Source: an uncultured Pseudoflavonifractor sp. (lineage in GTDB: Bacteria > Bacillota_A > Clostridia > Oscillospirales > Oscillospiraceae). Taken from it: a DNA stretch of 17,667 bases. The translations under genes were made by a program, and so were the position numbers. Below the pieces are notes generated by a model that saw nothing but the letters and a program-made list of their open reading frames with translations, did no database searches and was not told the origin of the DNA. Shown piece by piece: positions 2,118 through 17,089 of this stretch (the stretch's first letter is position 1; each line of letters starts with the position of its first letter). Location of the stretch: assembly GCA_947575475.1 (NCBI GenBank), contig CANPNN010000011.1, forward strand, positions 1 to 17,667. The letters run 5' to 3'.

Positions 2118-3214
2118 GTTCTATCCCCCTCTGAGGTGGGCAAACGGGAGGTGTCCACCACGATATCGCTCTGGCTTTCAACGGCAAGGGCTTCGAAATA
2201 GTTTTCCTCCATGGGGATCCACCGTTGTTTGAACTTTTCCAGACTCTCCGCAGTCTCCCGGCAGGCCAGACGGGCAAGCTGGACCTCGGGGGTGCAGGTA
2301 AAGAAAATGCGGAGAGTGGAATATCCAGCCAGAATGGGGTGAAGAGAATAGCTGCCTTCCACAAAGGTGAGCCGCCGGAAAGGGATCCCTATAGGATCTC
2401 CCATCGTCATAGTGTGGCAGTCAAAGCGGCGGTGGGACACCGCCTCCTCCCGGCGAAGGGGTTCGAAAAGCTCAGAGGCGGCCCGCTCGTAATCCACATT
2501 GCCGCCGGGAGCGGCCAGCCGTTCCGGGGTCCGCTTGGCGGGGGGCAGAAAGAAATCGTCCATGTGAAATATATTGCAAGGGGCAAAGAGCGCCGCCGCC
2601 TTCTGGGCGAAGGTGGTCTTGCCGCTGGCGCAGCGCCCGTCCACCGCCACGATGATCGGCCCCTCTGTGTTCCGTACAAGGGCGTCCACAGCCCGGAGGG
2701 CTGGGGCGTAGAGGGCCAGGTCCCGGTTCAGTATCCGGTAGTGGGGGCGGTAGAGCTCCCGGTAGCCGTCGCTGTGGTGGAGAGGGGGGCAGCCCTGGCT
2801 TTCATAGAGGGACAGGAACAGCTCCAGTTCCCTGGGATCCAGAGGCAGCTCTCCACACCAGGCCATGGCGGACAGAACCCCCAGCTTTTCCCAGAGTCCG
2901 GCCATGGTCCCCCGGGGTTGGGCTGAGCGGGTCAGACAGCGGGAGAGCAGGGGGAGGTCTGCCTCGGTGAAAAGGCGGGGGTCCAGATGGGCCCGACAGA
3001 GACCGCCGCCGATGGCCTCCACGGTATATTGGGGGGCATAGCTCTCCTCCCGGGCTTGGGCAAATTCCGCCTGCAGGCTTTCCAGAGCATCAGCCTCCGT
3101 CACAAGGTGACCGGGGCCGAATTCACTTTGATAGAGCAGTTTCACATAGTCCTGGATCTCCATAGCGGGATATCTTTGGGCGTGGAGCGTGAGAACGTTT
3201 TTCAGAACGGTCAT
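2114..3214 (-). CDS. Uridine-kinase-like P-loop NTPase with an extra N-terminal domain
   Basis: The 366-residue protein has two parts. Residues about 185-360 form a P-loop kinase fold like uridine kinase and phosphoribulokinase: the ATP loop G-R-C-A-S-G-K-T-T is at 193-201, an F-H-M-D-D-F-F motif at 216-222 and V-E-G-S-Y at 285-289, all where uridine kinases carry substrate-binding and catalytic residues. Residues 1-180 form a separate alpha-helical domain that I do not recognise by name, containing E-F-G-P-G-H-L-V at about 31-38. ATG 3214 has AGGAGG (3222-3227) 7 bases upstream. The gene is first in an operon with the sugar acetyltransferase. It probably phosphorylates a nucleoside or another small hydroxylated metabolite; the specificity is inferred only from the fold. 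Confidence 0.8.
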
Positions 3215-6097: not shown

Positions 6098-7489
6098 GTG
6101 AAAAAAAGGACCATAGGTCCCTGGGGTATCGCGCTGCTTCTAAGTCTGCTGCTGACGGGCTGCTTCTTCCGCACGGTGGATGAGCTATACGCCATTCCCC
6201 GGCCCTCCAGGGATTATGAGGCCCTTCAGGCCCGTCTGGGCGAGGTGGTCGCCCAGGGAGGAGAGTACGCTGCGCCTCTGACAGGCGAGATGATCCAGTC
6301 GGTCCAGCTTCAGGATCTGGATGGAGACGGAAGGCAGGAGGCCATCGCTTTTTTTCGCATGAGCAGTGAAGAAAAACCGCTGAAGATCTATATTTTTCGC
6401 CAGGTAGGCGAGGAGTACGAGACTTTTGCTGTCATTGAGGGGGCGGGAGCGGCCATCAACTGTGTGGATTATGTGCAGATGGATGACGAGCCATATAAGG
6501 AAGTGGTGGTCTCCTGGCAGATGACCGCCCAAGTCCATTCTCTTGCGGTCTACTCGATAGGGCCTGAGCAGGTGGAGGAGCTGATGCGTACCGACTACGA
6601 CAGCTATAAGCTTTTTGATCTGGATCAGGATAACCAGCAGGAACTCATCGTATTCCGCACTGCCGCAGGCAATGTGCCCGAAGCCGAGCTTTATGACTTT
6701 GACGGGGTGTTGTCCCGGACCAGTGAGGCTCCTTTATCGGTGGGAGCCTATGTGGGGGCTGACGGCACCGTTAAGAGCGAATACCTGACAGCTGTGCAGA
6801 CGGGGTATCTGGCCGACCGGGTACCGGCAGTCTTTGTCTCGTCGTCATATGGGGAGAACGGCGCCATCACCGACGTTTTTGCCGTCCGGGATGGAAAGCT
6901 GGAAAATGTGACTCTGGATCCGGAGACAGGAGAGAGCGGAGAGACGGTCCGCTTCTATACCCAGGTTGCCGCCCGGGACATCAATGGGGACGGGGTCATG
7001 GAGCTCCCTCAGCCGGTGCCTCTGGCCGATTACCGCATCACCGCTGATACGGTGAGTTTCTGGCTGATCCATTGGCGGCAGTTTGACGTTCAGGGCAATG
7101 CGACCCCGGTATTTACGACCTATCACAACGACCGGGACAGTTGGTACTTCATCCTGCCTGACGAGTGGGAGAACAATCTGACCCTGTCCCGCAGTGATCT
7201 GCCCGGCGGGGGGGAGCGGAGCGTGACCTTCTCCTACTGGCCGGCGGATGCGGGGGCCGAGCCGCTGCCCTTCCTGACCATATATAAGCTGACGGGCACC
7301 AACCGGACCACCCGGGCCCGAACGGGGGGGAGATTTGTGTTATGGCCCATGAACGCACTGGAAAACCCGGATGAGAGCGCCATCATCTATGCCGCCGAAT
7401 TCCGGGGAGCCTGGGACTGCGGCCTTACCGAGGAGCAGGTCCGGGAGCGGTTTAACATCATTCGTACCGATTGGTACAGTGGATATTGA
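6098..7489 (+). CDS. Lipoprotein with D-x-D-x-D (VCBS/FG-GAP-like) repeats
   Basis: This 463-residue lipoprotein is probably anchored on the outer face of the cytoplasmic membrane. GTG 6098 follows AGGGGAGGGGG (6082-6092). Residues 1-21 are a lipoprotein signal peptide ending LLTG, with C22 as the lipid-attachment cysteine. Three short acidic loops, DLDGDGRQE (73-81), DLDQDNQQE (174-182) and DINGDGVME (294-302), resemble the calcium-binding loops of VCBS/FG-GAP beta-propeller blades, so at least the first 300 residues may form an incomplete propeller. The C-terminal part (about 310-463) has no motif I recognise. The response regulator gene follows after 16 bases and then its kinase, which suggests the lipoprotein senses or modulates the signal read by that kinase. 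No enzyme activity can be assigned. Confidence 0.8.
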   Translation: MKKRTIGPWGIALLLSLLLTGCFFRTVDELYAIPRPSRDYEALQARLGEVVAQGGEYAAPLTGEMIQSVQLQDLDGDGRQEAIAFFRMSSEEKPLKIYIFRQVGEEYETFAVIEGAGAAINCVDYVQMDDEPYKEVVVSWQMTAQVHSLAVYSIGPEQVEELMRTDYDSYKLFDLDQDNQQELIVFRTAAGNVPEAELYDFDGVLSRTSEAPLSVGAYVGADGTVKSEYLTAVQTGYLADRVPAVFVSSSYGENGAITDVFAVRDGKLENVTLDPETGESGETVRFYTQVAARDINGDGVMELPQPVPLADYRITADTVSFWLIHWRQFDVQGNATPVFTTYHNDRDSWYFILPDEWENNLTLSRSDLPGGGERSVTFSYWPADAGAEPLPFLTIYKLTGTNRTTRARTGGRFVLWPMNALENPDESAIIYAAEFRGAWDCGLTEEQVRERFNIIRTDWYSGY

Positions 7490-15820: not shown

Positions 15821-16351
15821 ATGAATACACCCAATAAACTGACCCTTCTCCGGGTGCTGATGATCCCTCTGTTTCTGGGGGTGCTGTATCTGGGCTTTCC
15901 GGGGAGCAACTATGTAGCTTTGGTCATCTTTGTGCTGGCAAGCCTTACCGACCTGTTGGACGGCCACATTGCCCGGAGCCGGAACCTGGTCACCGATTTC
16001 GGAAAATTTATGGACCCTCTGGCGGACAAGGTGCTGGTGGTGACCGCCATGCTCTGGTTTGTCCAGTGTGGCCAGATGCCCGCCTGGGCGGTGGCCATCG
16101 TTATTTTCCGGGAGTTTGCCGTGTCCGGGATGCGCCTCATCGCCGTGGAGGGGGGGCGGGTCATTGCCGCGGGCTGGTCGGGGAAGGTAAAGACCGCCTC
16201 CACCATGATCTGTCTGATCCTCATGTTCCTGCCTTTCCTGCCGGGGTGGGTGAATACTGCCTGCGTCTGGGTCATCGTGGCCACCACCCTCTATTCCGGG
16301 GCGGAATATTTCGTCAAGAACCGGGATGTGTTCGACTGGAGCCAGCTTTGA
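15821..16351 (+). CDS. pgsA: CDP-diacylglycerol--glycerol-3-phosphate 3-phosphatidyltransferase
   Basis: PgsA makes phosphatidylglycerol phosphate from CDP-diacylglycerol and glycerol-3-phosphate, the committed step to phosphatidylglycerol. The 176-residue membrane protein has the complete CDP-alcohol phosphotransferase motif: D47-G48, A51-R52, G61, D65 and D69 in DGHIAR...GKFMDPLAD. About six membrane segments are expected. The N-terminus NTPNKLTLLRVLMIP is the family's usual start. ATG 15821 has GTGAGG/GAGGAG sites overlapping the end of rimO. It is last in the recA operon and is followed by a strong terminator. Length is typical. Confidence 0.96.
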   Translation: MNTPNKLTLLRVLMIPLFLGVLYLGFPGSNYVALVIFVLASLTDLLDGHIARSRNLVTDFGKFMDPLADKVLVVTAMLWFVQCGQMPAWAVAIVIFREFAVSGMRLIAVEGGRVIAAGWSGKVKTASTMICLILMFLPFLPGWVNTACVWVIVATTLYSGAEYFVKNRDVFDWSQL

Positions 16352-16355
16352 GGAA

Positions 16356-16401
16356 AAATTCACGGAGGGGCGCCGGATGGCGCCCCTCCGTGAATTTCTT
16401 T
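16356..16401 (+). terminator. Strong terminator after pgsA
   Basis: Perfect 19-bp stem (16356-16374 with 16379-16397) around a GGAT tetraloop (16375-16378). The AAATTCACGG side and CCGTGAATTT side are fully complementary, and CTTT follows. It starts 4 bases after the pgsA stop. Confidence 0.92.
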
Positions 16402-16410
16402 AAGGGGTTC

Positions 16411-16439
16411 TTGCAATATGGAAATATTCCTGCTATAAT
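16411..16439 (+). promoter_or_regulatory. Very strong promoter of the structured RNA
   Basis: TTGCAA (16411-16416) and a perfect TATAAT (16434-16439) are spaced by 17 bases, with TGC before the -10 (extended -10). This is the best promoter in the window. Transcription would start near 16446, and no gene start lies within 330 bases downstream. Confidence 0.88.
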
Positions 16440-16445
16440 TGGAAC

Positions 16446-16670
16446 GAAAAACAAAAATGCGGCAGCCTGTGGGTGGTCGGACACCCACAGGCCTGCGCAG
16501 GTGAACCACCACCTACACAACGGCCATATGGCCGCACCGCATGGTATATTATACGATAGCGGGGCTCTTCTTGCAAGGGCAGTTTTTCGTATCGTTGCCT
16601 GCGCCTGTGTGCATGAGAAGATCTCTTCTTACGCTGTGTAGGGTCATCCCTGCACGGCGTTTTTGTTTTT
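16446..16670 (+). ncRNA. Structured non-coding RNA of unrecognised family (about 225 nt)
   Basis: The transcript is bounded by the strong promoter and an intrinsic terminator, and no reading frame fits it. Domain 1: ATGCGG (16457-16462) pairs with CCGCAT (16537-16542) and encloses three hairpins: an 11-bp perfect stem (16465-16475 with 16482-16492, loop GTCGGA), AGGTG/CACCT (16499-16503 with 16510-16514) and CGGCC-ATAT-GGCCG (16521-16534). Domain 2: ACGATA (16553-16558) pairs with TATCGT (16590-16595) around GCTCTT/AAGGGC (16564-16569 with 16575-16580). Domain 3: the terminator domain, CGCC (16602-16605) plus GTGCA (16609-16613) with TGCAC-GGCG (16651-16659), enclosing two small hairpins. GCGCAGG (16495-16501) can also pair with CCTGCGC (16598-16604), a possible long-range contact. 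It does not fold like 6S RNA and I see no SRP, tmRNA or RNase P signatures. It may be a free RNA or the leader of the next genes. Confidence 0.75.
16602..16670 (+). terminator. Intrinsic terminator of the structured RNA
   Basis: CGCC and GTGCA (16602-16613, bulge TGT) pair with TGCACGGCG (16651-16659). Internal hairpins are AGAAG/CTTCT and AGGG-TCAT-CCCT (16640-16651, which competes for T16651). TTTTTGTTTTT follows directly (16660-16670). Confidence 0.75.
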
Positions 16671-16673
16671 CAC

Positions 16674-16737
16674 CCGCCGCCTGGGGGCCGGAAGGCCCCC
16701 GGGATCGGTGCGGTGAGAAGCGGCGGAGAGGCTTTTT
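16674..16737 (+). terminator. Second terminator-like or attenuator structure before the membrane genes
   Basis: CCGCCGC (16674-16680) can pair with GCGGCGG (16720-16726), enclosing a very stable GGGGGCC-GGAA-GGCCCCC hairpin (16683-16700). TTTTT (16733-16737) follows after 6 bases. It is only 4 bases beyond the RNA's own T tract and 40 bases before the next ATG, so it may be a back-up terminator or a regulated leader. Confidence 0.4.
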
Positions 16738-16777: not shown

Positions 16778-17089
16778 ATGGCAAGGTACAAGGTGAGCAT
16801 TACGGTATTCAAGGACGCCGAGGGAAAAACCATGAAGGGCATCACGTTTCTGCACTTCCTGGGGGATCTTTGCCAGGGCTTTGGGCTCATGCTGCTCCTG
16901 GGCGGCATTGCGTGGCTCATGGATGGCATGGTGACCCCGGGGAAGGCGGTGGTTTTGGCCGCCTGCGTCATCGGTTGCTTTGTGGGCGGTTCTCTGATCC
17001 ATAAAAGAGCCAGAGGGAAGGCAGAGATGCGCTATCTGGAGTCCCTGGCCCAGGCCGGGAAGACCACGAAGGAGGTAGAGCGGCTCTGA
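16778..17089 (+). CDS. Small two-segment membrane protein of unknown function
   Basis: I do not recognise this 103-residue protein. The N-terminus (1-20, MARYKVSITVFKDAEGKTMK) is charged, followed by two probable membrane segments (about 32-49 and 56-74) and a charged cytoplasmic-type tail (75-103, HKRARGKAEMRYLESLAQ...). The frame is open from 16541, but that part runs through the structured RNA. ATG 16778 has GGGAGGTG (16764-16771) at a good distance and gives a sensible protein. The next gene overlaps its stop by one base. I see no clear promoter between the RNA terminator and this gene, so it may be expressed by read-through from the promoter at 16411. Confidence 0.72.
   Translation: MARYKVSITVFKDAEGKTMKGITFLHFLGDLCQGFGLMLLLGGIAWLMDGMVTPGKAVVLAACVIGCFVGGSLIHKRARGKAEMRYLESLAQAGKTTKEVERL

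Follow-up and report, generated by a model that had tools for sequence, protein, structure and literature searches.

A probable antisense RNA-controlled transcription attenuator that recurs ahead of unrelated genes in Oscillospiraceae genomes

What is the role of a stretch of about 225 nt that has a strong promoter, a dense series of hairpins and a terminator, and that encodes no protein? The window, i.e., the whole 17,667-nt stretch of DNA analyzed here, from a contig of an uncultured Pseudoflavonifractor sp., carries such an element on its plus strand, and the first-pass annotation had read it as a stand-alone RNA and a complete transcription unit without a gene. The comparisons presented below suggest a different answer: on the plus strand the element looks like the leader of a gene (promoter, 5′ domain, intrinsic terminator, and then the gene for a 103-aa protein), and the element as a whole is likely a transcription attenuator controlled by an antisense RNA. 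The parts to which the text refers are the following.

15821 to 16351, plus strand: upstream gene, taken to be pgsA as in the first-pass annotation, followed by a terminator-like hairpin at about 16358 to 16396 (by eye)
16411 to 16439, plus strand: sense (leader) promoter, TTGCAA-17-TATAAT with a TG ahead of the −10 box (window scan; conserved among copies)
16446 to 16671, plus strand: leader RNA, from the predicted start to the end of the U-tract (plus-strand model R1, 228.5 bits)
16446 to 16541, minus strand: predicted antisense RNA of about 95 nt, read from 16541 to 16446, with three hairpins closed by helix P1 and a U-rich 3′ tail (minus-strand model R2, fold, polarity, covariation)
16465 to 16492, minus strand: hairpin hp1 with a hypervariable loop, the proposed recognition loop (polarity, loop comparison)
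16512 to 16518, plus strand: antiterminator segment CCUACAC, formed by the hp2 3′ arm and the next bases (matched vs. swapped pairing)
16548 to 16576, minus strand: internal antisense promoter TTGCAA-17-TATAAT, −35 box at 16576 to 16571 and −10 box at 16553 to 16548 (window scan; conserved spacing)
16631 to 16671, plus strand: intrinsic terminator (the attenuator) with its U-tract (window scan; base-pair polarity)
16636 to 16642, plus strand: GUGUAGG, in the terminator 5′ arm, putative partner of CCUACAC (covariation)
16667 to 16719, plus strand: hairpin 3′ of the terminator whose 5′ side takes up part of the U-tract (predicted fold)
16778 to 17089, plus strand: gene proposed to be under control, for a 103-aa protein that looks hydrophobic (by eye; 15 homologues, no Pfam match)

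Much of the earlier description was confirmed: the RNA is conserved and structured, falls outside Rfam 15, has a strong promoter and a terminator and shows many compensatory changes, and the dense hairpins and the multiloop closed by ATGCGG/CCGCAT are indeed present. The 228-nt fold (16446–16673) reached −111.8 kcal/mol (z = −8.5, with 0 of 200 shuffles equally stable), and the terminator consists of 13 pairs at 16631–16660 followed by TTTTGTTTTT. The element also seems to be free of protein-coding sequence, as inspection of 23 aligned copies by eye showed no conserved frame; an upstream frame starting from an AUG in the A-tract (by eye) was considered as a conserved one and discarded, since loci L085 and L137 are without that AUG. 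The sense promoter scores 10/12, as high as any in the window, but it is not the single best one that had been claimed: it shares this score with two others, one of which lies on the minus strand (16576–16548) within the same element. The score of the leader with R1 is not independent, as the window is one of the 23 sequences from which this covariance model was built, and the antisense RNA region, which helped to build R2, scored 97.4 bits with that model.

The Rfam 15 search gave no gathering match in the window, so that no known family was found, and none on the element in the 39 loci that the models added (among them L179, which is probably no genuine copy); gathering hits outside the element were a skipping-rope RNA in L190 and a tRNA in L176. 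A loose search (E ≤ 10) returned weak matches in the window, e.g., ctRNA_pGA1 (18.4 bits vs. a cutoff of 45), the best being drum RNA (RF02958, 23.5 bits vs. a cutoff of 43, E = 0.023, 16353–16458). The identity with drum RNA was rejected, as the match is below the cutoff and lies mostly upstream, on the pgsA terminator and the promoter. Rfam holds a pT181 model, and given that no gathering match to the curated models was obtained, descent from the pT181 and pIP501 RNA families does not appear to be supported.

The strand was judged by the mismatches in the helices. A helix selected as RNA tolerates G·U pairs and does not tolerate A·C pairs. Read on the plus strand in 100 copies, the 5′ domain has an excess of A·C over G·U (P1 35/15, hp1 73/8, hp2 23/4 and hp3 13/1), and the polarity is opposite in the terminator (8/157) and in P0, the helix that joins the two ends of the element (18/69). 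The binomial p values, in which cells are treated as independent, were 0.007 for P1, 3e−14 for hp1, 3e−4 for hp2, 0.002 for hp3, 5e−37 for the terminator and 3e−8 for P0; both these tests and the swap tests given below ignore relatedness and base composition. The 100 rows were left after a 95% filter had dropped four, including the row of the window itself, and the alignment model, built on the plus strand, disfavors A·C, a bias that acts against the 5′ domain result and toward the terminator and P0 results. For P1 the polarity is weak. Because the polarity is opposite in the two parts, the 5′ domain is most readily taken for an RNA of the minus strand and the terminator for one of the plus strand. 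More generally, a structured RNA can be assigned to the wrong strand unless A·C and G·U counts are compared.

The minus strand from 16541 to 16446, when folded alone, gave the multiloop as both the minimum free energy and the centroid structure (−59.6 kcal/mol, z = −6.8). The covariation test that had been suggested as a check was passed by this minus-strand structure: in 73 sequences, 24 of 28 consensus pairs had changes on both sides, 95.1% of cells were paired, and 0 of 500 shuffles were as high on any of five measures. The complementary ends (P0) also pair better when matched (−9.60 kcal/mol) than when swapped (−4.61 kcal/mol, n = 100). Because of these ends a retron had been considered; no reverse transcriptase was present among the 25 listed Pfam families of 71 downstream proteins.

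The sense and antisense promoters face each other. The conserved ATTATA...TTGCAA at the center of the element becomes a promoter when read on the minus strand, and a score of at least 9 was obtained there in 95/104 copies, compared with 13/104 after one letter shuffle each; the spacing was 17 nt in 97/104, and the best minus-strand site inside the element was 96–121 nt from the leader start in 103/104. The sense promoter reached at least 9 upstream of 81/104 copies (7/104 when shuffled); one copy, L245, had no upstream sequence. Variants often have other promoter-like letters (TTGTAA, TTGAAA, TTGACT, TATACT), which fit a promoter rather than an RNA motif, as would be expected. The alignment used for promoters and loops (A2) holds 104 of 110 matches, the six omitted ones being low scorers (27.8–35.1 bits) that all lie opposite a listed copy, on the other strand, three coinciding with it and three overlapping it in part.

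A switch between two exclusive structures is suggested by the pairing of CCUACAC with GUGUAGG. Matched arms had a mean of −12.04 kcal/mol vs. −10.04 kcal/mol for swapped ones (sd 0.23, best of 500 swaps −10.67) in 91 of 100 rows, the other nine having no alignable terminator arm. The 49 copies without the canonical CCUACAC gave −11.89 vs. −9.58 kcal/mol (sd 0.32), and the 27 distinct non-canonical pairs −11.79 vs. −9.66 kcal/mol (best swap −10.96), with co-varying arms such as CUCAGCAC:GUGUUGAG, CUCAUAC:GUAUGAG and CCUUACG:CGUAAGG. When 92 nascent leaders were folded up to the first arm of the terminator, the antiterminator formed with at least five expected pairs in 68 and had less than one pair in 8. 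In the full leaders, the terminator formed with at least six pairs in 88/92 with the 5′ domain blocked and in 77/92 unblocked. As the terminator is predicted in 77/92 even without blocking, and 8/92 are without the antiterminator, we infer from these folds that antitermination would have to depend on the order of transcription.

The genes that follow the element mostly have the same direction as it: in 105 copies the nearest downstream gene was on the same strand in 91, on the opposite strand in 11 and not called in 3, and the upstream gene was on the same strand in 55, on the opposite strand in 49 and not called in 1. Two of the 11 opposite cases (L121 and L135) have a nearer same-strand frame, and L130 was counted among the 105 and is absent from A2. 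Orientation was taken from our own codon-score caller, an earlier call by ORF length having been too noisy (71 same, 14 opposite, 20 undecided of 105). The start codon is located 20–154 nt 3′ of the leader in 74 copies. The downstream proteins are mostly unrelated. The scanned set comprised 71 of 83 proteins, with 12 left out by hand (mostly near-duplicates), and among the matches listed (25 of the 49 matched Pfam families) the SLH domain occurred in 11, the copper amine oxidase N domain in 5, BspA-type repeats in 4, NPCBM in 3 and TraX in 2, together with single cases of a TnpB-like protein (L146), a phage integrase and a Spo0E-like protein (L250). Neither a replication-initiator nor a toxin family was present among these 25 families, and the 103-aa protein has 15 homologues and no Pfam domain. 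With PHROGs, 51 families were matched by the same 71 proteins, and the 25 listed include an unnamed one (10 members), ‘major tail protein’ (5), integrase and transposase.

Some of these settings were looked at individually. In L146 (360–1466, minus strand) the module precedes a TnpB-like gene with Cas12f1-like TNB and OrfB_IS605 domains, and in L149 (1764–2420, plus strand) the downstream product matches HTH_OrfB_IS605 weakly (16.5 bits vs. a cutoff of 21). A nuclease associated with transposons may be under antisense control here. The copy at L085 (5074–5287) comes from a sequence labelled ‘Bacteriophage sp.’ in which an integrase gene was recognized by eye, and the copy is followed by a 67-aa and a HATPase-like protein; HATPase-like genes were also seen by eye 3′ of the copies in L156, L198 and L318, and a product in L153 is below the HATPase_c cutoff (21.9 vs. 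26.4).

The closest copy, L004, likewise lies after pgsA (95% identical over 408 bases, within a 3,380-base stretch that is 87% identical), and the region downstream of pgsA had been proposed as the place to collect homologues; this expectation failed, as blastn against 80 pgsA loci matched L004 only (some of these loci reach little beyond pgsA, and distant copies escape blastn). Judging from these loci, the position after pgsA is not conserved. In L001, with a PgsA 97% identical, the module is absent and a relative of the 103-aa gene lies directly after pgsA (by eye), and the same arrangement without the module was found in L005 by blastn; because both have a relative of the gene after pgsA without the module, close relatives must differ by a gain or loss of the latter. 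Another copy, in G007 (89%), is on a different contig, yet also ahead of the 103-aa gene (by eye). In L006 the region after pgsA (about 6525–6800) has what may be a T-box-like leader, judged by its motif, ahead of a gene that looks like cysS, and cysS also neighbors several module copies (by eye).

When 300 family genomes were searched at the DNA level, 37 had a match (E ≤ 0.01). With R1, matches at E ≤ 0.01 were obtained in 62/394 genomes of the order and 21/291 of the class, the weakest of which may be due to chance, and with R2, among the matches listed, in 99/300 genomes of the family (E ≤ 1e−4, up to 13 per genome) and in 10/398 of the phylum (E ≤ 0.001). Each tally includes the center genome, G001, and many of the genomes are in pieces. 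The viral contigs searched with the DNA pattern gave 0 matches, and no match to the element was found in the plasmids or in the E. coli genomes searched.

The copies differ most in the loop of hp1. This loop is hypervariable and often inverted, as the reverse complement of 62/104 loops occurs in other copies (mean 4.2 and maximum 15 in 1000 shuffles); on the minus strand, for instance, the window has TCCGAC and L082 has GTCGGA, each the inverse of the other, and the commonest loop is TTGGCG (15/104). In G130, 12 of the 13 copies were read and all 12 had distinct loops, and the eight most alike varied in 7/7 columns of the hp1 loop and 7/7 of the hp2 loop, compared with 3/84 of the other columns, a pattern that private loop-loop recognition would produce. 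Pairs of copies with at least 0.5 identity were also compared for loop sharing, which was seen in 1/10 (same genome) and 37/548 (different genomes) at 0.5–0.6 identity, in 0/17 and 21/195 at 0.6–0.97, and in 1/1 and 2/2 at 0.97 or above; these counts alone fail to separate co-resident copies from others. Two co-resident copies, L227 and L229, share a loop, as do two (L271 and L281) of the six copies read in G1271, where eight are present. In G1262, L274 and L279 have nearly the same stems with the apical loop inverted (GGTATTGGCGTACC vs. GGTACGCCAATACC). Clustered copies with differing loops were observed in L200 (2296–2506 and 3446–3655) and L213 (8187–8517, plus strand, and 2504–2837, minus strand), for which tandem or mobile spread of the cassette is possible.

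Taken as a mechanism, the leader of the 103-aa gene would start near 16446, and during transcription CCUACAC (16512–16518) would pair with GUGUAGG (16636–16642), block the terminator and let the polymerase read into the gene. The antisense RNA of about 95 nt, made from the internal minus-strand promoter, would contact the leader through its hairpin loops, pair along the 5′ domain and cover CCUACAC, upon which GUGUAGG would pair with the 3′ arm of the terminator and transcription would stop at about 16671. The sequence comparisons argue for both promoters, the strand polarity of the helices, the covarying exclusive pairings, the co-oriented genes and the hypervariable loops; we infer that the two RNAs are produced, that they meet through kissing loops and that their binding leads to termination. 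The U-rich tail that would terminate the antisense RNA follows the multiloop and not a simple hairpin, a point that counts against this otherwise best explanation. A wider proposal, whose chances we consider about even, is that of an orthogonal, self-diversifying set of antisense switches, in which one cassette is reused across related bacteria ahead of dozens of unrelated genes (surface, mobile-element and regulatory ones), kissing loops are forced to diverge among copies that share a genome (inversion included), and each gene would have a private silencer. If true, this could make the on/off expression of surface proteins noisy or copy-dependent.

The same parts could act on another output, with the antisense RNA working mainly on translation, through the ribosome-binding site and the U-tract hairpin, or through collision of the two facing promoters, and with termination being minor. 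Predicted folds give this some room: the U-tract pairs downstream in 69/74 copies, the hairpin after the terminator is more stable when matched than when swapped (−34.9 vs. −28.2 kcal/mol, 74 copies), and nearly all of the ribosome-binding site is paired in 31/65; according to PMC5703833, moreover, plasmid pSK41 works at translation. The site is not nearly fully paired in the other 34/65 of the same folds, however, and translational control leaves unexplained the GUGUAGG/CCUACAC covariation that an antiterminator needs, which makes this option unlikely. A second layer of control is nonetheless likely, in which the U-tract pairs with the 5′ A-tract or with the following hairpin, sometimes covering the ribosome-binding site, and which would be secondary to attenuation.

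A riboswitch-like or protein-controlled leader, in which a ligand sets the exclusive terminator and antiterminator and the antisense promoter is incidental, would account for the leader position, the conserved 5′ domain, the two alternative structures and even the unrelated downstream genes, as with second-messenger riboswitches. It would not account for 5′ domain helices that prefer A·C over G·U on the sense strand, for a minus-strand promoter found more often than the sense one (95 vs. 81 of 104) or for hypervariable loops, which are unsuited to a ligand pocket, and we regard it as highly improbable. Slightly less credit still is given to a minus-strand RNA that acts in trans or as a type I antitoxin against small membrane toxins: some downstream products are small, including the 103-aa one, but the listed SLH (11/71), copper amine oxidase N, BspA and TraX proteins do not agree with it, nor do the module-free relatives of the 103-aa gene that follow pgsA in L005 and L001, or a genome (G130) with its own loop in each of the 12 copies read. 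The least probable is the stand-alone sense RNA of 225 nt, the original reading. An own promoter and terminator and the plus-strand polarity of P0 speak for it; against it stand the polarity of the 5′ domain, which puts the multiloop on the minus strand with a conserved promoter of its own, and the co-oriented genes (91/105), which make the element the probable leader of the gene at 16778–17089 instead of a transcription unit without one. Both this idea and that of a plain riboswitch had served as working ideas until base-pair polarity and the internal promoter led away from them.

Read as antisense-controlled attenuators, the members of the family would supply more than 100 natural switches (105 copies examined), present, among the matches listed, in about a third of the sampled family genomes and placed before surface and mobile-element genes. 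With such a family it becomes testable how many antisense switches one cell can accommodate without crosstalk, and in what way recognition loops evolve. In the literature covered, which extends little into subscription papers and preprints, no description of this family was recognized; the element may be an unnamed entry among the 3161 candidate RNAs, 250 of them palindromic, reported in PMC8040213.

The features found here are a predicted antisense gene with its own promoter opposite the leader, a sense-strand intrinsic terminator before the gene and, in predicted folding, an antiterminator that traps the terminator 5′ arm and lies within the antisense-complementary stretch. According to PMC5703833 and PMC4878617, plasmids pT181 (repC with the antisense RNAI) and pIP501 (repR with RNAIII) work alike, as an antisense RNA acts on a leader that toggles between antiterminator and terminator and, by covering the antiterminator, lets the terminator form; RNAI has 87 nt compared with the approximately 95 nt predicted here. 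These plasmid systems control replication genes, whereas the present cassette is found ahead of numerous unrelated genes, with many copies per genome, has a predicted three-hairpin closed structure and has no Rfam match. RnaG/icsA of Shigella flexneri, as described in PMC5394118, shares the antisense RNA, the kissing loops and the premature termination of a non-replication gene, but it is one RNA of 450 nt for one gene on a virulence plasmid and not a repeated cassette. The TTGGCG loop of hp1 is identical to the six-base loop common to the loop-loop chimeric attenuators in PMC3753616, whose natural parents act on translation, a comparison that covers six loop bases. Taken together, the element is probably best seen as a portable, multi-copy cassette of antisense-controlled attenuators, with a kind of mechanism already known from pT181, pIP501 and RnaG.
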